Source: Tissierellales bacterium
GTDB lineage: Bacteria > Bacillota > Clostridia > Tissierellales > Sedimentibacteraceae
Length of the DNA: 64,000 nucleotides
Assembly (NCBI GenBank): GCA_018433765.1
Contig: JAHDQO010000013.1
Span: 248,001 to 312,000 of the forward strand
Direction of reading: 5' to 3'
In this document: positions 53,351-63,836 of the stretch, in pieces
Layout: each line of letters begins with the position of its first letter
Position numbering within the stretch: position 1 is the first letter of the stretch
Notes under the pieces: model-generated
Database searches by the model: none
The model's input: only the letters and a program-made list of their open reading frames with translations
What the model was told of the DNA's origin: nothing
Position numbers and translations under genes: made by a program

Positions 53351-54520
53351 CTACATATTTAATATAAAACTTCCCAAAAGATTTAACGCTACTTTAATAG
53401 TTTCTTCTTTAGGATAAAATTTATCACTGTGTAAAGGATAGTTTGAATCACAGCCTAAATGAAAATATAGTGAAGGGATGTATTTGCAAAACGAAGAAAA
53501 ATCTTCACCAATTAGCGAGGCTGTAATATTTGTCATAACATTATCTTCTCCTAAAAGATTAACTGCATGTCTTACAAAATTTTGAGTTAGTTCTTTATCG
53601 TTAATAACAGAATCATATCCTCTACATATTATAATTTCACTATCTCCACCGTAGGACTTGATAATACCATCTGCAATTTGATGAATCCTCTTGTGAATTC
53701 TATTTCGTGTTTCTTCACATAAAGTTCTCAAAGTTCCTTCTATTTCTACATAATCGCAAATTATATTATATCTTCCTGTTGAGTGAAATTTACCTATAGA
53801 AATAACTGCTGGTTCAAATGGATTCATTTCTCTTTTAAGTTTAAATTCTAAAGCGTTAATAACATCTACTCCTATAGATATTGCATCAACTCCCTTATGA
53901 GGCTGAGCAGCATGAGTTTTTTTACCTTTAATGATAATTTTAAATTTATCTGAAGCAGCCATAATGGGACCATCTTTTACTGCTATTTTTCCTACCTTGT
54001 AATCTGGCCAAACATGAAATCCATAAATTTCAGATACATCAGGATTCTTTAATACACCTTTTTCAATTAGAGACTTAGCTCCTCCTTGTGGATTGCATTC
54101 TTCAGCAGGTTGAAATATCACTTTCACATTTACATTTAATTTTTCTTTTAAACAATTTAGTATAATACACATGCCTGCACCTATAGAAGTATGCACGTCA
54201 TGTCCACAGGCATGCATTTTTCCTTCATTCTTAGACATGAAATCTAATCCTGTATTTTCAGTTATAGGGAGAGCGTCTATGTCTACTCTCAACCCTATAG
54301 TTTTTTCACAGCCATTGTCAATATTTACTACAGCTCCGGTTAAGTCTGAAAAGGTTTCTGCGGTCACTCCATTTTTTTTAAGAAAAGAAATAATCCTCTT
54401 AGTAGTTTCTACTTCTTCATATCCTAGTTCAGGATGCCTGTGGATATCTTTCCTAAATTCAATAACATCTGTTAATATGTTAGAAATTTTTTTGTCTAAA
54501 TCATATTTATACATTATCAT
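53351..54520 (-). CDS. M20-family metallopeptidase/amidohydrolase
   Basis: Zinc hydrolase of about 389 residues of the aminoacylase/IAA-amino-acid hydrolase group, cytoplasmic. Seen: FRKDIHRHPELGYEE, GRVDIDALP-like GLRVDIDALPITENTG, MHACGHDVHTSIGAGM (metal ligands), FQPAEECNPQGGAKSLIEKGVL and the end GEDFSSF. The frame can extend to 54562 but that part overlaps the end of the previous gene without a site; ATG near 54520 is preferred. Last gene of the minus-strand catabolic cluster; likely deacylates or hydrolyses N-acyl amino acids or dipeptides. Confidence 0.9.
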   Translation of the reverse strand: MIMYKYDLDKKISNILTDVIEFRKDIHRHPELGYEEVETTKRIISFLKKNGVTAETFSDLTGAVVNIDNGCEKTIGLRVDIDALPITENTGLDFMSKNEGKMHACGHDVHTSIGAGMCIILNCLKEKLNVNVKVIFQPAEECNPQGGAKSLIEKGVLKNPDVSEIYGFHVWPDYKVGKIAVKDGPIMAASDKFKIIIKGKKTHAAQPHKGVDAISIGVDVINALEFKLKREMNPFEPAVISIGKFHSTGRYNIICDYVEIEGTLRTLCEETRNRIHKRIHQIADGIIKSYGGDSEIIICRGYDSVINDKELTQNFVRHAVNLLGEDNVMTNITASLIGEDFSSFCKYIPSLYFHLGCDSNYPLHSDKFYPKEETIKVALNLLGSFILNM

Positions 54521-54533
54521 ATTCTCGCTCTTT

Positions 54534-55631
54534 CTATTTAAAAATTGATTCATCAACATCAATTCCTAATCCCGGATTTTCTGGACAAATTACTTTGCCA
54601 TCTACCATATCTAGTCCACCTTTAATAATATCATATTCATGTAGAGGACCGCCTAGCAGTAGATCATTAGGTAGATTTACATTTTTACTGCTTATAACAA
54701 AATGTACACTGGCAGCAGAACCGATTCCTACTTCTAAATTACTACCAGCAGTTGCAGTCATTCCTGCTGATTCTAATATAGTTGCTATTTTCTTTGCAAT
54801 TGATAATCCGCCAACTTTTCCAACTTTTATATTTACAATATCTGCGGCTCTTTCATTAATAATTCTATTAACATCATGAAGTGAAGATACTGATTCATCA
54901 GCCATTATAGGTGTTTTAAGTCTATTCTTTACAAATTTTAATCCTTCAATATCCCATCTTTCTACGGGCTGTTCTATACTTTCTAGTCCAAATTCTTCAA
55001 TTTTGCTGAATACTTCTACAGCTGTTTTATAATCATAACCTTGATTTGCATCTAGTCTTATTGGAACATCTTGTCCTACAGCTTCTCTAATAGTTTTTAC
55101 AAGATTATAATCAATTTCAGGAGTATTTCCAACTTTTACTTTAAGAGCTTTATATCCAAGCTTTATTTTTTCTTTTGCTTCTTCAATAGCACCTTCTAAA
55201 TCCTGCATACCTACAACCCAGCTCAGTTCAACATCTTGTCTGCATTTTCCACCTAACAGTTTATACACTGGTACTCCGAGGGTTTTACCCATTGCGTCAT
55301 AAAGTGCAATGTCTACTGTTGATTTGGCAGCGTAGTTCCCATAAATAGAGAAGTTCATTCTTTCATGAAGTTTATCAACGCTAAATATGTCTTGTCCAAT
55401 CAACACAGGTTTTAAATATTTATCAATTACAAGCTTAATAGTGTATCCTGTTTCACCCATAAAGGCAGGCGAAGGAGAAGCTTCTCCATATCCTACTATT
55501 CCATCTTCTGTTGTAATTTTTAGAACTGCATGAGCTCTTGTTTTTGCAGCGTATAATGATATTTTCCACTGCTTTTTTAACGGTAATTCTAGTACTTTTA
55601 CCTCAATATCTTTAATTATGCTTTTATTCAT
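54534..55631 (-). CDS. Enolase-superfamily epimerase (dipeptide-epimerase-like)
   Basis: Muconate-lactonising-subgroup enzyme of about 365 residues. Seen: catalytic K-x-K in YKALKVKVGN, metal ligands in IRLDANQGYD and ESIEQPVE, MADESVSS, and the second lysine in NIKVGKVGG. Close relatives epimerise L-Ala-D/L-Glu dipeptides, but the C-terminal DxD motif of those enzymes reads D-L-L here (residues about 327-329), so the substrate may differ. Start ATG at 55629-55631 suits AAGGATGGTGA better than the ATG at 55643. Between the M20 gene and the serine hydrolase gene, with a few bases on each side. Confidence 0.87.
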   Translation of the reverse strand: MNKSIIKDIEVKVLELPLKKQWKISLYAAKTRAHAVLKITTEDGIVGYGEASPSPAFMGETGYTIKLVIDKYLKPVLIGQDIFSVDKLHERMNFSIYGNYAAKSTVDIALYDAMGKTLGVPVYKLLGGKCRQDVELSWVVGMQDLEGAIEEAKEKIKLGYKALKVKVGNTPEIDYNLVKTIREAVGQDVPIRLDANQGYDYKTAVEVFSKIEEFGLESIEQPVERWDIEGLKFVKNRLKTPIMADESVSSLHDVNRIINERAADIVNIKVGKVGGLSIAKKIATILESAGMTATAGSNLEVGIGSAASVHFVISSKNVNLPNDLLLGGPLHEYDIIKGGLDMVDGKVICPENPGLGIDVDESIFK

Positions 55632-55649
55632 TTCTGTCACCATCCTTAT

Positions 55650-56420
55650 TTATTTAAAATAATCATATACAATCTTTCCAATATTATTGTTAAATTTTAT
55701 ACCTTCTGTATTATCTTTTAAATTTTTTGTTAGAACTACAACAATAATTTCTGTATTATTTAAAAATAAAATACCAGCATCATGTTCTACTCCCGGTAAA
55801 TCTCCTGTTTTATGAGCAAAAGCTATATCTTTGTCTATTAATACAGGAAGCTTGTTATTACACTGTTGTCTTTTAAGAATATCAATTATTTTGTTTCTGC
55901 TAACATTTGATAACTCATATGAAGTTAAGAATTTTTCAAGAATGTTTGATACATCTATAGGAGATGTAAAATTATCAAGTCCTTTTTTCTTAGCTTCTCC
56001 ATCCATCATTTTTCGCTGTAAAATTGTATTTTTCGTACCTATATCTTTACTAGATTGATTTATATTTTCCATTCCTAACAAATCTATCAATACATTTGTA
56101 GCAACATTATCACTTAATATAATCATTAGTGTTGCAAGGTCTTTTATAGATAAATTTAATCCATTGTGTAGTTCTTTTAATATTCCAAATCCTCCAACTT
56201 TACTGCATTCTTGTAAAGCAACTTCATTATCTAAAGATATATCTTTAGATTCTATTTTTCTAAATAGTTCCCATATTATTGGTAGTTTAATTATGCTTGC
56301 TGAAGGGAATACCATATCTTCATTGAACATAATTATTTCACCAGTTTTAACATTTTTAACAACTACTCCAGCTTCTCCGTTAAGCTTACTAATTAAACCT
56401 TCTATTTTCACTTTTAACAT
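55650..56420 (-). CDS. Cytosolic class-A beta-lactamase-like serine hydrolase
   Basis: Protein of 256 residues with all class-A landmarks: SASIIK (SxxK), ILSDNVATNVLIDLLG (SDN) and AFAHKTGDLPGVEHDAGIL (KTG). The omega-loop position expected to hold the ExxLN glutamate reads MMDGEAKKKGLDNF. There is no signal peptide or membrane anchor, so it should stay in the cytoplasm, unlike resistance beta-lactamases. Lying between an amidase and an epimerase in a catabolic operon, it more likely hydrolyses an amide or cyclic amide metabolite. ATG with GGGAG, 2 bases after the nitrilase stop. Confidence 0.85.
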   Translation of the reverse strand: MLKVKIEGLISKLNGEAGVVVKNVKTGEIIMFNEDMVFPSASIIKLPIIWELFRKIESKDISLDNEVALQECSKVGGFGILKELHNGLNLSIKDLATLMIILSDNVATNVLIDLLGMENINQSSKDIGTKNTILQRKMMDGEAKKKGLDNFTSPIDVSNILEKFLTSYELSNVSRNKIIDILKRQQCNNKLPVLIDKDIAFAHKTGDLPGVEHDAGILFLNNTEIIVVVLTKNLKDNTEGIKFNNNIGKIVYDYFK

Positions 56421-56422
56421 AA

Positions 56423-57253
56423 TTATTCTCCCTTTTTATTCATTTGCAAGATATCATCTGGATAGCTTTGAGGTTGGCGGTCATAATACATTGGAATAAT
56501 AGAACGCACCTCTTTTACTTTGTTAAAATCTACTTCTCCAGATATAATAGTTTCTTCATCATTTCCTTCATTTATAATCTCTCCCCAAGGGTCTATAATT
56601 AAAGAATGCCCGAAATAAGTACTTTTATCTGCACTTCCAACTCTATTGCAGGCAATAATATACAATTGATTTTCAATAGCTCTTGCTTGAAGCAGTATTC
56701 TCCAATGATTAACTTTTGGATTTGGGAAATTTGATACAATAATTATTGCATCAGCACCTTTTACAGCATATGTTCTTGATAATTCTACAAATCTAATATC
56801 ATAACAAGTCATAAGTGCTAGCTTGCCGAATTCAGTATCAAATACAGGCATATCTACTCCGTTTTTAAATGCTACATCTTCATCCATAGCACTGTATAAA
56901 TGCATCTTTCTATATTTTCCAACAATATTACCTTTTCTATCAATTAAAAATATAGTATTGTAAGTTCCTTTATCATCTTTCTCTACAATAGAACCTGATA
57001 CTAACCATACATTAAATTTTTTTGCTAATCTTCTAAGCACTGTAACGGTTTCTCCATCTTCGGTTTCTGCATATTTATCTATATTGTGAAAAATTCCTTC
57101 TGAATATCCTGTTGTAAAGGTTTCAGGGAAAACTATGATATCTGGATTATCTTCTTTAACTGCTTTCTGTATCAATTGTGCTACTTTTTCTACATTTTCT
57201 TTAGGATTTCTATAAACAATATCAAGTTGAATTTGTGATACTTTAAATGACAT
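56423..57253 (-). CDS. Nitrilase-superfamily amidase (carbon-nitrogen hydrolase)
   Basis: Cytoplasmic amidase of about 276 residues with the catalytic triad Glu (VFPETFTTGY), Lys (GKYRKMHLYS) and Cys (LMTCYDIRFVELSR), as in omega-amidase/YafV-type enzymes. Substrate probably an omega-amide such as a-ketoglutaramate or an N-carbamoyl or glutaminyl compound. The first ATG at 57268 overlaps GGAGG; the ATG at 57251-57253 has proper spacing. Part of the minus-strand cluster, after the permease gene and a MITE-like insertion. Confidence 0.9.
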   Translation of the reverse strand: MSFKVSQIQLDIVYRNPKENVEKVAQLIQKAVKEDNPDIIVFPETFTTGYSEGIFHNIDKYAETEDGETVTVLRRLAKKFNVWLVSGSIVEKDDKGTYNTIFLIDRKGNIVGKYRKMHLYSAMDEDVAFKNGVDMPVFDTEFGKLALMTCYDIRFVELSRTYAVKGADAIIIVSNFPNPKVNHWRILLQARAIENQLYIIACNRVGSADKSTYFGHSLIIDPWGEIINEGNDEETIISGEVDFNKVKEVRSIIPMYYDRQPQSYPDDILQMNKKGE

Positions 57254-57319
57254 TTTTAATTCCTCCATGCAAAATATATTTTAAAGATGTATCTCTATTT
57301 TAATTTTATAAGAAGAATT

Positions 57320-57436
57320 CAGGCTGTTGATAAACCCAATTTTTATCGTTGCTGCTCCAATACTTTAGGTGCTGTTCGAACTTATTCAGCGACTTAAAGG
57401 AGTCGAGTTACCACGTAAGAGTTTCTCAAAAGCCTG
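57320..57436. mobile_element. MITE-like 117-bp element with terminal inverted repeats
   Basis: CAGGCTGTTGATAAACCC (57320-57337) faces GAGTTTCTCAAAAGCCTG (57419-57436): 14 of 18 end positions match as inverted repeats. The interior contains hairpin CGACTTAAAGGAGTCG (57391-57406) and no ORF. The base composition is less AT-rich than the flanks. It lies between permease and nitrilase genes. No clear target duplication was seen. Such ends resemble those of transposase-mobilised miniature elements; no transposase is in the window. Confidence 0.6.
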
Positions 57437-57447
57437 TCATCTTTTAA

Positions 57448-58752
57448 TTAGAATTTATAGGTTACAGCTCTTATTACTACAAATAAACAAGTTAATGCTG
57501 TAATTAGCAGTCCATTCTTTATCATACTTTTCAAATCATTAGATCTAGCCAATCCCATCTGTCCAAGCATGTCACCAGTAGGATAAGCGAAGAAAGTAAT
57601 TTGAGAACCTACTAACAATACCAATGCCCATAAATGCATAGGAATACTTAAATCTTGTACAATTGGTAAGAATAAATCGTATAAAACTTTTTCTTGTGCT
57701 ACTGCTGCACCAGATACGCCAAATACACCAACAAGAGTACTTATAATCATAAATCCTGCTTCTCCACCTGCATCAATTAAAGGTTTTAAATATCCTGCAA
57801 GTGCGTCAAAAGCTCCAGATTGAGTAACAAATTTCAAGAAAGGATCATATAAAACGAATAATAAGAATAACCAATACATTCTTGCACTACCCTTAATCAA
57901 AACTTTTAGAACATCAGCAGCACTTAATCCTGATGTCCAACCAGTTACAAAAGCGACAATAAACATTACAGTTAGAGCATATGAAGCACCAGCTTTTGCA
58001 ATAATTCCATAGGCTATTAAAGCTGCCATAGATAAGGCAAATGCAACAGTTGCTTTTTTAATTTTAGGTGTTACAACAAATTCTTTATTATCTACCATAT
58101 CTTCCTTAGAATATGAGACTACACCTTCATATTTTTTTTGAGTTCTTTGAGCAATGAAGTAAGTAGAAATCCAGATCAATACTGAAACTGGTAAACCAAC
58201 ATGTAATAAATAAGTACCATAACTTATATTGGTAAGACCCATAGTAGTAACAACAGGTGGAACAAAAGGCCCAAGGAACAACCCTGTAGCGCCAGCACCA
58301 TGCAACAATACGCCTAGTGCATTAGGAGTAATACCAAAACTAGCAACTATAGGAATAATTATTGGAGCTAAAATAGCATTAGAACCTGCCATAGAACCTA
58401 ACAAGCCAACAAGTATTACTGATGATGCCATTGTTGCTATCATAGCTTGTCTTTTTGTTTTTACACCTGTTTTGGTAACAACAATGTGAACAATATTTTG
58501 TGCAACCTTAGTTTCACTAAGAACTTCACCAAGTCCTGCACCCATTAAAATAATAAAACCAATTAGGCCTAGAAAAGAGCCTAGAGCTTCCTGAAGAGCT
58601 ACTCCAAAAGTAATAGGAGTTTGCCCAGTTAAAATAGCTCCTATAACAACACATAACATAACTACGGTTAGCATATCTTTACCTTTGAATGATAAAATAA
58701 TATAGACAAGTAAAGGTAAGAAGCCAAGTATTGCGGGTAAACCAAAAATCAT
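57448..58752 (-). CDS. Ion-transporter-superfamily permease of the catabolic cluster
   Basis: Membrane protein of 434 residues with about 12 hydrophobic segments. Seen: IVASFGITPNALGVLLHGAGATGLFLGPFVPPVVTTMG and LVGVFGVSGAAVAQEKVLYDLFLPI with FFAYPTGDMLGQMGLARS, a pattern of GntP/NhaC/citrate-type carriers of the IT superfamily. Probably imports the substrate degraded by the downstream enzymes; sodium/proton antiport is the alternative. ATG with AGGAGG. First gene of the cluster, with an operator-like palindrome upstream. Confidence 0.75.
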   Translation of the reverse strand: MIFGLPAILGFLPLLVYIILSFKGKDMLTVVMLCVVIGAILTGQTPITFGVALQEALGSFLGLIGFIILMGAGLGEVLSETKVAQNIVHIVVTKTGVKTKRQAMIATMASSVILVGLLGSMAGSNAILAPIIIPIVASFGITPNALGVLLHGAGATGLFLGPFVPPVVTTMGLTNISYGTYLLHVGLPVSVLIWISTYFIAQRTQKKYEGVVSYSKEDMVDNKEFVVTPKIKKATVAFALSMAALIAYGIIAKAGASYALTVMFIVAFVTGWTSGLSAADVLKVLIKGSARMYWLFLLFVLYDPFLKFVTQSGAFDALAGYLKPLIDAGGEAGFMIISTLVGVFGVSGAAVAQEKVLYDLFLPIVQDLSIPMHLWALVLLVGSQITFFAYPTGDMLGQMGLARSNDLKSMIKNGLLITALTCLFVVIRAVTYKF

Positions 58753-59091
58753 AAGCGTAATCCTCCTAGATTTTATTTATTTATAATAACCCGTTATGTT
58801 TATGAATATTGCAAAAATATAATATTTTTAATAACGTTCAATCATTAGTTTTAATGATTGTTCCATAAATTTCTTTTAATTAATTTAATTATTTGATAAA
58901 ATATATTTGGAAGGCTCCAGCAAGTTAAATTTACAATCATTAGTGTGTGTGTTAAATGATAGTTAATATATTTGCTGGGGTTTTTGCAAATTCAATTATC
59001 ATAACGTGCTAAAATAACGTAAGATAATTAATTCATTAATAGGTCATTATTTTTATCTAGTCTTATCTCGGATTATAATTTATTTTTTACT
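58753..59091. other. Control region between the permease and RpiR genes
   Basis: About 340 bases. A 22-base palindrome CAATCATTAG-TT-TTAATGATTG is at 58839-58860, and the same CAATCATTAG recurs at 58934-58943; both are candidate operators for the RpiR-type regulator. A hairpin CCAGCAA (58917-58923) with TTGCTGG (58972-58978) followed by TTTTT reads as a plus-strand terminator whose loop contains ATCATT/AATGAT. No ORF. Confidence 0.55.
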
Positions 59092-59937
59092 TTAGATGTA
59101 AATTCCTGTTTCAAAAGCAATTTTTTCTTGTTCTTTTAATTTTTTTAGTGTTTCATCTTTATTAACTTTACCTAACTTGACAACTAAAGCATTAAGTATT
59201 GTCATTGCTGAAACAAAAGAATAAGTATCGGTACTATTTTTAGCTATCAATGTAGTATCTGCTTTTATTGCAACAGGTGAAGAGTAACTATCTGTTATAG
59301 CAATTATTTTGCTTTGGCTATTTTTAAAATATTCTGTTATTTTAGATGTGAATTTCGTATAATGGGAAAAGCTGATTGTTATTAAAACATCCTCTTTCTT
59401 TATATAAGATAATTTTGTTGATATATCTTCTGTTCCTGCACTAAGTAGTTCAACATTTTCCATAAAACCTCTTAACATAAAATTTAAATAGTATGCAACA
59501 GTAAAAGAAGATCGTGAACCAATAATGTAAACTCTTCTACTCTTTGTTATTATGTCTATTGCTTTTTGAAACGATTCATATAATTCATCTGAATAGGTAG
59601 TTTTTAATGTGTTAATATTTAAGTCAATTGTTTTTTGTAAAACGTTATCATAGTCATTAGAACTAGATAAAAAATGCTTGAATTCTCTCATGGGTACTAT
59701 TTCTTTTTTTACAACTTTTTGAATTTCTTTTTGAAAAGCAGGGTAGCCGCTAAACCCAATCTCTTGAGCAAATCTAGTGATACTTGCAGCACTTACTCCA
59801 GTTTTTTCAGTTAACTCTTTTACTGAAAGAAAAGATAGTACAGTATAATTTTCTTTAACGAAATCTGCTATAATTTTAAAAGTTTTAGATAATGAGTCAT
59901 ATTTTGTATCAATCTTATAAAAAATATTATTTTCCAT
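59092..59937 (-). CDS. RpiR/MurR-family transcriptional regulator
   Basis: Regulator of 281 residues: N-terminal helix-turn-helix (FLSVKELTEKTGVSAASITRFAQEIGFSGYPAFQKEI) and C-terminal SIS sugar-phosphate-binding domain (SRRVYIIGSRSSFTVAYYLNFML, EDVLITISFSHYT, KIIAITDSYSSPVA). The neighbouring cluster contains an L-Ala-Glu-epimerase-like enzyme and other amide hydrolases; since MurR-type members respond to MurNAc-6-phosphate, a link to cell-wall peptide use is possible. A TTGACA about 75 bases upstream gives it its own promoter. Confidence 0.9.
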   Translation of the reverse strand: MENNIFYKIDTKYDSLSKTFKIIADFVKENYTVLSFLSVKELTEKTGVSAASITRFAQEIGFSGYPAFQKEIQKVVKKEIVPMREFKHFLSSSNDYDNVLQKTIDLNINTLKTTYSDELYESFQKAIDIITKSRRVYIIGSRSSFTVAYYLNFMLRGFMENVELLSAGTEDISTKLSYIKKEDVLITISFSHYTKFTSKITEYFKNSQSKIIAITDSYSSPVAIKADTTLIAKNSTDTYSFVSAMTILNALVVKLGKVNKDETLKKLKEQEKIAFETGIYI

Positions 59938-60096: not shown

Positions 60097-60135
60097 AAAA
60101 AGAATCTATTATAAATAACATAATAGATTCTTTTT
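60097..60135 (-). terminator. Terminator of the T-box-controlled mini-ORF transcript
   Basis: Perfect 15-bp stem AAAAAGAATCTATTA (60097-60111) with TAATAGATTCTTTTT (60121-60135). On the minus strand it ends in TTTTTATT and its first base overlaps the stop codon of the 10-codon ORF. Confidence 0.9.
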
Positions 60136-60167
60136 CAAGTTATAATGTGAATAATTTCATCTTCCAT
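60135..60167 (-). CDS. Ten-residue isoleucine-rich mini-ORF
   Basis: MEDEIIHIIT, ATG at 60165-60167 preceded by AAGGAG with ideal spacing (8 bases), TGA at 60135-60137 at the foot of the terminator hairpin. Four of ten codons are isoleucine (three ATT, one ATA). It begins 11 bases after the stop of the 38-codon ORF. Either a leader peptide whose translation tunes the terminator, or a second tiny product of the T-box transcript. Confidence 0.5.
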   Translation of the reverse strand: MEDEIIHIIT

Positions 60168-60178
60168 TACAATACTCC

Positions 60179-60295
60179 TTAATTTTCGAAGTTATCTTTA
60201 AACATGCCATTTCCAAAGAAGTTTAAGTTTTGTTCGTATTGCTTAGATGATTCTTTTTTTAGCTCTTCATTTAAAGTTTTTTCTTTCTCATTCAT
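60179..60295 (-). CDS. 38-residue small protein under T-box control
   Basis: MNEKEKTLNEELKKESSKQY followed by EQNLNFFGNGMFKDNFEN. ATG at 60293-60295 with AAAGGAG seven bases before it, directly after the T-box terminator. Charged, helical N-terminal half, then an aromatic FFGNGMF patch; no signal peptide, no cysteine and no isoleucine codon. Not recognised. It is the first gene behind an isoleucine-type T-box and the transcript ends after the 10-codon ORF. Too short for most gene callers. Confidence 0.65.
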   Translation of the reverse strand: MNEKEKTLNEELKKESSKQYEQNLNFFGNGMFKDNFEN

Positions 60296-60323
60296 TTTAA
60301 AGCTCCTTTCTTTTTTTATAAAT

Positions 60324-60613
60324 AAAAAAACGTCCTTGAAAATATAATTCAAGGACGAGAATTAACCCGCGGTACCACCTTATTTACACAATAGTGTCAC
60401 TTATTTTAAGTTCTAACAAACCTAGACCAATAACGAGGTCAACCGTTATCAATTACTATTTTCACTGATACAGCTCTAGAGTGATTTCCACTTTTTAAAT
60501 ATTATCGTATCTCACCATCACGACTCTCTTAAAATATTTATATAAAAAGCTTCGTCTCTTTCATCGCCTTACAAAATTTTAATTATTATAATAAATAATA
60601 ATGTTGATGTCAA
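60324..60613 (-). promoter_or_regulatory. T-box leader, probably isoleucine-specific, with promoter
   Basis: Minus strand: -35 TTGACA (60608-60613), 17 bp, -10 TATAAT (60585-60590). The leader has stem I with the AG-rich GAGAGTCG/GATACGAT bulge, a specifier strand GGAA-ATC-ACTCT (around 60474-60491) reading ATC (Ile), the T-box core AAGGTGGTACCGCGGG (60367-60382), and the terminator CGTCCTTGAA (60331-60340) with TTCAAGGACG (60348-60357) plus T run. Uncharged tRNA-Ile should promote read-through. The specifier is inferred from position within the loop. Confidence 0.93.
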
Positions 60614-60856
60614 TAATATTTGCAAAATAAAATCTGTTAATTTAAACCAGTATTTTATTTATATTATGATATAGAGTTATGTTAGTGTATATAATATATG
60701 TTGAATAAATAGAAATATTGAGTAAAATCAAACATTAATTATAGACTGCTGTTTGTTAATAAATAAATACAGTATTTAAATGTTTTTGCTTTGTTTCTTA
60801 TAGATTTATTACTTGAAACATGTATAATAATGTGTTAACATATGGTTGAATTTAAT

Positions 60857-60986
60857 AGTAGGGGTGCTGATGTTAGTCGGCTGAGATTAAGAACTGAATT
60901 CTTTGACCCTTGAACCTGAACTGGGTAATTCCAGCGTAGGGATAGGTAATAGCATATTTACCTATGTGTAATATGCTTTTTTATTT
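60857..60986 (+). promoter_or_regulatory. TPP riboswitch (THI element) with terminator
   Basis: Conserved words in order: GGGGTGC (60860-60866), GGCTGAGATTA, ACCCTTGAACCTGAACTGG, GGTAATTCCAGCGTAGGGA (to 60942). The expression platform shows two exclusive hairpins: ATAGGTAA (60942-60949) with TTTACCTAT, and the terminator AGCATATT (60951-60958) with AATATGCT followed by TTTTTT. Should switch off thiW and the following salvage genes when thiamine pyrophosphate is high. Confidence 0.97.
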
Positions 60987-61033: not shown

Positions 61034-61531
61034 TTGAAAAAAAATATAATTGCTTCACTATTAGCTGCTATAGGTATTTTGACATCTAGTGTAATATGCA
61101 TACCAGTTGGTGTTGCTAAGTGCTATCCTATCCAGCATACAATAAATATAATATCAGCAGTTCTTTTAGGTCCTGTATATAGTGTGATAACAGCATTTTT
61201 AATATCACTTATTAGATTGCTATCAGGAACTGGTACCATTCTTGCTTTTCCCGGAAGTATGATAGGGGCTTTATTAGCAGGACTGCTTTACCAGAAGTTT
61301 GAGAAAGATTCTAGTGCAGTTATTGGAGAGGTAATAGGTACAGGAATAATAGGTGCAATGGTAGCAGTGCCGATATCTAACTTATTTCTAGGAACTAGTA
61401 AGGCGGCCTTTGCCTTGATAATTCCTTTTATAGTAAGCAGTTTAGGTGGAGCTGTGATATCTATAGCTTTACTGAAATCTGTATCATTGAAGAAACATTT
61501 AGATAAATTCAAGATTCAAAATGCAGAATAA
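61034..61531 (+). CDS. thiW: ThiW, energy-coupling S component for thiazole uptake
   Basis: Membrane protein of 165 residues with about five hydrophobic segments. Seen: VGVAKCYPIQHTINIISAVLLGPVYS, FLISLIRLLSGTGTILAFPGSMIGALLAGLLYQKF, the ThiW signature. It uses the shared ECF module encoded elsewhere to import hydroxyethylthiazole. TTG start at 61034 with AAAGGAGG upstream. First gene behind the TPP riboswitch, consistent with the downstream salvage kinases. Confidence 0.93.
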   Translation: MKKNIIASLLAAIGILTSSVICIPVGVAKCYPIQHTINIISAVLLGPVYSVITAFLISLIRLLSGTGTILAFPGSMIGALLAGLLYQKFEKDSSAVIGEVIGTGIIGAMVAVPISNLFLGTSKAAFALIIPFIVSSLGGAVISIALLKSVSLKKHLDKFKIQNAE

Positions 61532-61535
61532 GAAA

Positions 61536-61900
61536 TTTAAATTAACCACGGAAGAACACGGAAAGACACGGAGTTTATTTTTTGCTTACGCAAAGTTTAT
61601 AAAACGAGGGATGAGTAACTAATTAATAAACGAGGGATGAGTAACTAGAAACTAGTAACATGGAGGTTTTACTTTCGTAAAACATTGTCTATTTAAAATC
61701 TAAAGCTAATTAACCACGGAAGAACACGGAAAGACACGGAATTTATTCTTTACGTACGTAAAGGATATAAAACGAGGAATGAGTAATAACTAATAAACGA
61801 AGGATGAGTAACTAGAAACTAGTAACATGGAAGCTTTACGACAGTAAAGCAACCTAAATTTTTAACTTTTAATTTTTAACTTTTATCTTTGACAAGTATA
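61536..61900. repeat. Heptamer-arm elements, two tandem 168-bp copies
   Basis: Fills the gap thiW-thiD. Copies start at 61541 and 61709. Each has an ATTAACCACGGAAGAACACGG arm, a hairpin (TTTGCTTACGCAAA at 61582-61595; CTTTACGTACGTAAAG at 61748-61763), arms of AACGAGGGATGAGT units, the word ACTAGTAACATGG, and a closing hairpin (GTTTTACTTTCGTAAAAC ending 61683; GCTTTACGACAGTAAAGC ending 61850). Both hairpins differ between copies by changes on both strands that keep pairing. After copy 2 comes an AACTTTT arm to about 61890. Confidence 0.8.
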
Positions 61901-61938
61901 ACTGTCAGTATTAGGAAAAAAGGGGGCTGTTATAAATT

Positions 61939-62712
61939 ATGAAGAAGGTATTAACAATAGCGGGTTCAGATAGCAGTGGTGGAGCAGGCATACAAGCAGA
62001 CTTAAAAACATTTGCAGCAAATGGAGTATATGGTGCGAGTGTCATTACTGCGGTTACAGCACAAAATACCCAAGGAGTTTATGATATACAGAGTATTAAA
62101 CCTGAAATTGTACAAAAGCAAATTGAAGCTGTTTTAGATGATATAGAAATAGAAGCTGTAAAAATAGGTATGGTTTTTAATGATAAAATAATACATGCTA
62201 TAAATAATACTCTGACTAAATATAACATACAAAAAATAGTATTAGATCCTGTTATGATATCAACTAGTGGAAAAAGACTTATAGATAAAAAAGCAGAAAA
62301 ATCACTTATAGATCTTTTTAAAATATCTTATGTTATTACTCCTAATATTCCAGAAGCTGAAGCTTTAACAAACAAGAATATAACAAATATAGAAGACATG
62401 AAAGAAGCATGTATTAATATAAGAAAATTAGGTGCTAGATCAGTACTTTTAAAAGGTGGACATTTAGATAGAAAAGCAGTAGATGTGCTGCTGCATAACG
62501 AAAAGTTTTATTATTTCGAAAAAGAAAAAATAAATACAAAAAATACACATGGTACAGGATGTACTTTATCATCAGCTATAGCATCAAACTTAGCTAAAGG
62601 ATATGAATTACCAAATGCAGTTGAAAAAGCAAAAGAATATTTAACAAACGCAATCAGCAAGTCTTATAGTGTTGGAAAAGGCAACGGTCCTGTAAATCAT
62701 TTTTATAAATAA
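61939..62712 (+). CDS. thiD: Hydroxymethylpyrimidine/phosphomethylpyrimidine kinase
   Basis: Phosphorylates HMP and HMP-P for thiamine synthesis. 257 residues of the ribokinase family: [52 protein letters not shown] and the anion hole [22 protein letters not shown] preceded by a purine-rich GGGGG site. Flanked by repeat blocks on both sides. Confidence 0.96.
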
Positions 62713-62718
62713 AATTTA

Positions 62719-63012
62719 TAAAAAAACGAGAAACGAGAAATTAGGAAACGAGAAACAAGGATAGTTTTTATAAATAAAAACTTTTTAAAATAATAATAAT
62801 AATAAATTTTCTAAAAGAAAATTTAAACCATGTTCCTCGTTCCTCGTTATTAGTTACTCGTTTATAGAATAACGAGAAACGAGAAATTAGGAAACGAGAA
62901 ACAAGGATAGTTTTTATAAATAAAAACTTTTTAAAATAATAATAATAAAAATAAATTTTCTAAAAGAGAATTTAAACCATATTACTCGTTACTAGTTCCT
63001 CGTTACTCGTTC
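62719..63012. repeat. Two tandem 146-bp heptamer-arm palindromes
   Basis: Fills the gap thiD-thiM. The first ~100 bases of both copies are almost identical: 5' arm of AACGAGA/AAACGAG heptamers (from 62725 and 62871), hairpin AGTTTTTATAAATAAAAACT, (AAT)n linker and hairpin AAATTTTCTAAAAGAAAATTT (the second copy has GAATTT). The 3' arms (62828-62864; 62977-63012), complementary to the 5' arm, use the same heptamers TTCCTCG, TTACTCG and TTACTAG in different order. Best-preserved examples of the family. Confidence 0.85.
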
Positions 63013-63035
63013 AATAATGAAAGGAAGGTGTTTAT

Positions 63036-63836
63036 ATGAAACAAAATAATATAATTAAAAAAGTGAGAGAAGAGTCTCCATTAATACATCATATTACAAA
63101 TTATGTTACAGTGAATGATTGTGCAAATATTACATTAGCGTTTGGGGCAAGTCCTGTTATGGCTCACTGCATTGATGAAGTAGAAGAAATGGTTAGTATT
63201 TCTTCAGCTTTAGTGTTAAACATAGGTACTATCCAATCTTCTAGTATAGAAGCATTTATTAAAGCTGGAAAGAAAGCTATTAGTTTAGGTAAACCTGTTA
63301 TCTTTGACCCAGTTGGATGTGGAGCTTCTAAACTTCGTAGTGATGTATCTAAAGCAATAATAAATGAAGTTAAACCAAGTGTTATAAAAGGAAACATGGC
63401 TGAAATAAAACATTTACTTTTCAATAAAAGTAATATGAAAGGAGTAGATTCAGAAGAAAGCATGAAAGATGCAGAGAAAATTTCTGTTGAATTAGCTTTA
63501 AAGACTAATGCGGTAGTTGTTACTACAGGAAAAGTTGATTATATTACAGATGGTAAACGTATAGCAGCTGTAAGCAATGGAACAAGTATGTTATCAAAAA
63601 TTACTGGAACAGGTTGTATGTTAAATTCAATTATAGCAAGCTGCTGTAGTGTTAATAATGATTATTTAGTAAGTTCAGCAGTAGCTACATCAGCAATGGG
63701 AATTTGCGGTGAAACAGCGGAAAAAAATCTAAACATCAATGAAGGTTCAGGAACTTTTAGATATAGATTAATAGATGCATTTTATTTCATAGATGATGAA
63801 AAAATTAATAAAAGTGGGAGAATAAAAATTGTATAA
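63036..63836 (+). CDS. thiM: Hydroxyethylthiazole kinase
   Basis: Phosphorylates hydroxyethylthiazole in thiamine salvage. 266 residues: [59 protein letters not shown] and the active-site [14 protein letters not shown] with GAAAGGAAGG. Overlaps the start of thiE by 8 bases. Confidence 0.96.

Follow-up and report, generated by a model that had tools for sequence, protein, structure and literature searches.

A T-box leader with two very small ORFs recurs in Clostridia and looks like a starvation-response unit

On the minus strand of the analysed window, a stretch of 64,000 nucleotides from a Tissierellales bacterium, a compact unit spans positions 60613-60097 and lies between a thiamine locus with a TPP riboswitch and an rpiR gene. 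It consists of a promoter, a T-box leader with its terminator, two very small ORFs and a final intrinsic terminator (Table 1). The original prediction had placed these features correctly, and its consensus promoter, its full T-box with an ATC specifier followed by a terminator, its two tiny ORFs with strong AGGAG-type Shine-Dalgarno sites and its isoleucine counts for the two products were all borne out. The final terminator was confirmed as well, but its stem is 17 bp long and not 15 bp as first noted. The adjacent thiamine locus (window 61034-63836) is an ordinary one, in which the riboswitch (window 60850-60959) precedes a thiW-like gene and thiD- and thiM-like genes follow. Amid the thiamine genes, at window 61540-61850, an interspersed repeat (TTAACCACGGAAGAACACGGAAAGACACGGA and the bases that follow) is present in two copies.

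Table 1. Features of the small-ORF unit, with positions in the window
Feature	Position	Strand	Evidence
Sigma-70 promoter, TTGACA-17-TATAAT	60585..60613	-	12/12 match
Complete T-box leader, isoleucine type, RF00230	60348..60573	-	116.8 bits, E 3.6e-25
Specifier triplet AUC (Ile), followed by A	60483..60485	-	Stem I alignment to RF00230 and nine other T-boxes of the unit
Intrinsic terminator of the T-box, CGTCCTTGAA-loop-TTCAAGGACG-TTTTTTT	60331..60357	-	Competing fold, U-run after the T-box sequence
ORF1, 38 aa, no isoleucine, motif NLNFFGNG, MNEKEKTLNEELKKESSKQYEQNLNFFGNGMFKDNFEN	60179..60295	-	16-protein family and purifying selection
ORF2, 10 aa, MEDEIIHIIT, 4 Ile	60135..60167	-	Ile-rich ~10-aa counterpart in relatives
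Final intrinsic terminator, 17-bp stem	60097..60135	-	Fold z -5.2; abuts the ORF2 stop codon

The T-box leader of the window scores above the RF00230 gathering cut-off of 93 bits. Stem I is full, the bulge reads UGGU, antiterminator and terminator are both present, and the AUC specifier occupies the same position as in the Ile T-boxes of ilvA and ilvN in the same genome. Downstream of the leader, the Shine-Dalgarno sequence of ORF2 overlaps the stop codon of ORF1, which couples ORF2 to the end of ORF1.

The genes that T-boxes regulate are generally taken to be those for synthetases, biosynthesis and uptake. We compared the unit with other T-boxes, naming the genes behind them by reading translated sequences. 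The window genome contains 22 T-boxes, and the other 21, including the Ile-type ones before ilvA and ilvN, precede genes for aminoacyl-tRNA synthetases or for the biosynthesis of branched-chain or other amino acids. In G066, a genome of the window's order that also carries the unit, 23 of the 24 T-boxes stand before ordinary synthetase, biosynthesis or transport genes and the 24th belongs to the small-ORF unit; all 30 T-boxes surveyed in two members of the window's family likewise precede ordinary genes of these three kinds. One of the 23 in G066 is a Cys T-box (L077) followed by about four tandem ~80-bp repeats and then by cysE- and cysS-like genes. With the Ile/Leu T-boxes (RF00230) of Clostridia the unit shares the full Stem I, the AUC specifier, the antiterminator/terminator and the UGGU bulge, but here no synthetase, biosynthesis or uptake gene follows. 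This agrees with the earlier claim that no such gene is attached, and neither a synthetase nor a transporter is conserved downstream in relatives.

Beyond the final terminator, the window carries on its minus strand (53351-59937) the rpiR gene followed by genes for a GntP/DcuC-like permease, a CN-hydrolase, a beta-lactamase-like protein, an enolase-superfamily protein and an M20 peptidase, all in one direction; the set has the look of an operon for the catabolism of peptides or amides. Between the final terminator and rpiR we detected no promoter-like site above the 9/12 background, which leaves the predicted separate promoter of rpiR unsupported.

Iterated profile searches placed ORF1 in a family of 16 proteins from 12 genomes, representing five families and two orders; the searched genomes are a sample, and counts inside one lineage are not independent. 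The first profile search found three species of a single genus in the window's order (g17: G040, G054 and G066); in all three, a tandem pair of ORF1 homologues of 36-38 aa stands behind a T-box. Improved profiles added G1100 and then, in the order of G1100, G1211, G1220, G1215, G1169 (which carries a tandem ORF1 pair), G1212, G1178 and G1200. The weakest first-pass matches (E about 5e-4 to 1e-3) were kept because ORF2 and the terminator were found at the expected place. Distribution is patchy: in family f240, for example, 4 of the 16 genomes have ORF1, and in f98 3 of 41. Across the family ORF1 measures 32-43 aa, and conservation is concentrated towards the C-terminus around the invariant core N[VL]N[YFH]FG, mostly followed by xG; the N-terminus is variable and differs between tandem copies. 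Between close species, ORF1 changes mainly at synonymous sites and third positions (pooled pS 0.52, pN 0.12, P about 1e-19). As judged from these alignments, ORF1 is a real protein family under strong purifying selection, which answers the question of synonymous against non-synonymous change raised by the original prediction. A chance pair of open frames is unlikely, since in 11 other genomes the two ORFs reappear in the same order and with a matching composition; most of these genomes also carry the T-box.

ORF1 gave no match in scans of Pfam and NCBIfam and nothing significant in plasmid, phage and PDB searches, the best solved chain (E 0.47) being unrelated. No cysteine is conserved in the family, and no related loci were found on viral contigs. 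A single-sequence AlphaFold model predicts a pair of helices hinged at FGNG (pLDDT 88.9, pTM 0.52) and is too simple for a fold search. Several candidates were discarded along the way. A DNA pattern scan of genome and viral contigs with our first motif guess returned chance matches only; that pattern demanded a Lys before Asp/Glu, and the other lineages do without this Lys. Weak matches that the profiles gave across the class and the phylum were judged on inspection to be due to chance, and a viral contig that fitted the ORF2-terminator pattern matched inside a phage gene.

An Ile-rich ORF of about 10 aa resembling ORF2 occupies the same place in all 12 genomes, starting within about 4-15 bases of ORF1 or of its second copy. 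Besides the peptide of the window, the set includes MEEIDIIIKV, MEDIDIILKT, MEEIYIMLKT, MEEDIDIIIKA, MEDDSDIIVLV, MESDIGLINL, MESDISLINL, MKDDLSDIIG(NLQKNKNR) and similar peptides; the equivalent frame in G1212 seems to start with ATC. Among the 1165 ATG-led 10-mers of the window, ORF2 is the best match to the G054 peptide, and 0.1-1.2% of these 10-mers equal its match to the three g17 peptides. For ORF2, the signal of purifying selection reaches weak significance (P 0.026). Over seven lineages, isoleucine accounts for 1 of 250 residues in ORF1 versus 22 of 75 in ORF2 (Fisher P 1e-14, an indicative value as the lineages share ancestry). By composition, the contrast between an Ile-free ORF1 and an Ile-rich ORF2 is conserved. 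Conservation extends to the arrangement of Shine-Dalgarno sequences and starts and to the 3′ end, where the terminator stem has the ORF2 stop codon at its base or inside it. In the alignment the 5′ arm of the window's final terminator, AAAAGAATCTATT, is similar to the arms in distant relatives, and the arm AAAAGAATCTATTG is recognisably common to several families.

The order of promoter and T-box seen in the window is repeated in relatives. In nine of the 12 genomes the T-box scores above the Rfam cut-off, one has a shortened leader, and two (G1178 and G1200) gave no match. A full T-box with an AUC (Ile) specifier is present at six loci (window, G1100, G1211, G1220, G1215 and G1169). The three g17 loci have CUC (Leu) in this position, and the leuA T-box of G066 likewise reads CUC followed by C. 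In a tree of T-boxes, which with about 220 RNA columns is indicative, the Ile T-boxes of the unit form one clade (support 0.997), and the g17 T-box joins the leuA T-box of G066 (0.949). Because the window T-box groups with f240, a family of another order, the tree suggests that the unit has moved by horizontal transfer. The placement of the g17 Leu T-box with that of leuA is an indication that the ORFs were paired with branched-chain T-boxes on at least two separate occasions.

Two variants of the leader deserve description. In G1212 (L139, about 1290-1400) the leader resembles a T-box whose Stem I is drastically reduced; it lies below the Rfam threshold and was read by eye. It displays AUC in a ~6-nt hairpin loop (AAGGG-CAAUCA-CUCUU), with Stem III and a terminator after it. 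T-boxes with an ultrashort Stem I are known mainly as translational T-boxes (PMC7583486); the G1212 leader resembles them in its short Stem I but is apparently transcriptional. In G1178 and G1200, the ORF1 promoter is immediately preceded by a CodY-box-like site that has 3 mismatches against the CodY consensus (L140 1378-1392 and L141 1683-1697). A match of this quality is expected by chance in 5-9% of cases per locus. The site is a hint that CodY may replace the T-box there as a branched-chain sensor.

The surroundings of the unit vary. In g17 a metallo-beta-lactamase-fold gene lies downstream of it; G054 keeps this gene but lacks the ABC-transporter operon that its sisters have upstream. The downstream neighbours in G1100 are a Zn-ribbon-like gene and 16S rRNA, and an IS200-type transposase gene (PF01797) sits between T-box terminator and ORF1 (L132 867-1322). 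In G1169 the downstream neighbour is a SAM riboswitch. No partner gene near the unit is conserved across lineages, and since the downstream genes differ between lineages, some being antisense or separately promoted, the unit stands alone.

Based on its anatomy, with an Ile T-box driving small ORFs only, the unit looks like a real starvation-response unit, and the original idea of a starvation-responsive small protein thus gains support. We propose an operon for branched-chain-amino-acid starvation that would encode a small trans-acting ORF1 protein, while the translation of ORF2 would serve as an isoleucine sensor or timer; we consider the chances of this reading evenly balanced. By analogy with known T-boxes, uncharged tRNA-Ile would antiterminate the leader, and the mRNA would be made only when isoleucine is short. 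Lacking Ile codons, ORF1 could be fully translated during the shortage, and its product may act in trans as a small regulatory protein through the N[VL]N[YFH]FGxG motif. ORF2 could be finished only once some Ile-tRNA is present, so that the 3′ end of the mRNA would carry a second, translational sensor or timer. Ribosomes might, for example, reach and melt the 3′ hairpin and so clear the message; alternatively, the short peptide might tune ORF1. A strict logic of one amino acid is weakened by g17, where the T-box reads Leu and ORF2 keeps its Ile codons. An anti-CodY role of ORF1 was considered, and CodY was rejected as a common target: CodY (PF06018) was not found in the window genome, despite its 22 T-boxes, and is present in the three g17 genomes. 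In a further reading, which we regard as tentative and somewhat less probable, the unit would be a horizontally moving two-peptide module with an Ile-free effector made in starvation and an Ile-rich companion completed when isoleucine returns, behind a T-box that reads the same shortage, so that codon content itself would be the logic.

Four other explanations were weighed against this starvation operon. The two ORFs could form an Ile-gated antagonist pair, in which ORF1 slows growth or translation in starvation and ORF2 is the antidote made once Ile-tRNA returns. The coupled pair of Ile-free and Ile-rich ORFs in fixed order in every lineage, the patchy distribution and the signs of horizontal transfer would fit such a pair, but an antidote of 10 aa would be unusually short, toxin-like features are absent, g17 joins a Leu T-box with Ile codons in ORF2, and ORF1 was copied in tandem without extra copies of ORF2. 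We consider this explanation unlikely, though the best of the four.

Less probable still is a role of ORF2 as a classical leader peptide. Translation of ORF2 would then govern whether transcription passes the final terminator and enters the next operon, in the window the one with rpiR, permease and CN-hydrolase. A ribosome at the ORF2 stop codon should disturb the hairpin, and rpiR follows in the same direction without a clear promoter of its own. However, the varying downstream genes of other lineages and the selection that acts on ORF1 itself speak against it. The second attenuation layer of the original prediction is unsupported as control of a downstream gene: nothing downstream is conserved, and ORF2 of g17 retains its Ile pair despite the Leu T-box.

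A similarly low probability applies to the idea that ORF1 is a precursor from which starvation releases a signalling peptide, exported or modified, with the conserved C-terminal part as the active one. The pattern of conservation and the differing N-termini of tandem copies would suit a precursor, but ORF1 has no signal-like N-terminus and no conserved modification, protease or transporter gene beside it. Least probable of all is that the transcript is itself the product, as a starvation-induced small RNA or a tRNA-Ile sponge with secondary ORFs, since the similarity of the terminator arm across families is outweighed by the third-position bias of ORF1 and the conserved translation starts.

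The proposed starvation operon can be compared with amino-acid leader-peptide attenuators of the ilv, leu and his type, in which a tiny ORF with many codons for one amino acid likewise adjoins an intrinsic terminator; here, in contrast, nothing behind the terminator is conserved and the peptide comes after the conserved ORF1. The closest precedent and nearest working analogue appears to be the anti-TRAP operon, to our knowledge the sole well-studied exception to the rule of T-box targets. There, a short codon-rich leader peptide before the small protein forms a second sensor. In both systems a T-box for one amino acid drives a small protein in place of an enzyme or a transporter, and a codon-rich short peptide goes with it, but in our unit the order is reversed, with the peptide after the small protein and directly against the terminator. 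In Bacillus subtilis, the T-box of this operon drives the small regulatory protein AT (rtpA/yczA) (PMC4027176, PMC11255114). AT responds to Trp and is a zinc-binding, cysteine-rich trimer that acts on TRAP; ORF1, without conserved cysteines or a significant match to solved chains, is unrelated to it by these tests.

As originally supposed, the system seems to be undescribed: no small-ORF T-box unit appears in Table 2 of either T-box survey (PMC2494555, PMC11477304), with prior notice elsewhere possible. It would represent a second family of small proteins under T-box control. At least five families of Clostridia carry it, and the extreme shortness of both products hides it from annotation. The unit would also offer a testable case of two-level starvation sensing on one tiny mRNA, with tRNA charging read in the leader and Ile-tRNA supply in the last ORF, and ORF1 may have as its target a new regulator, either of the use of branched-chain amino acids or of translation in starvation.
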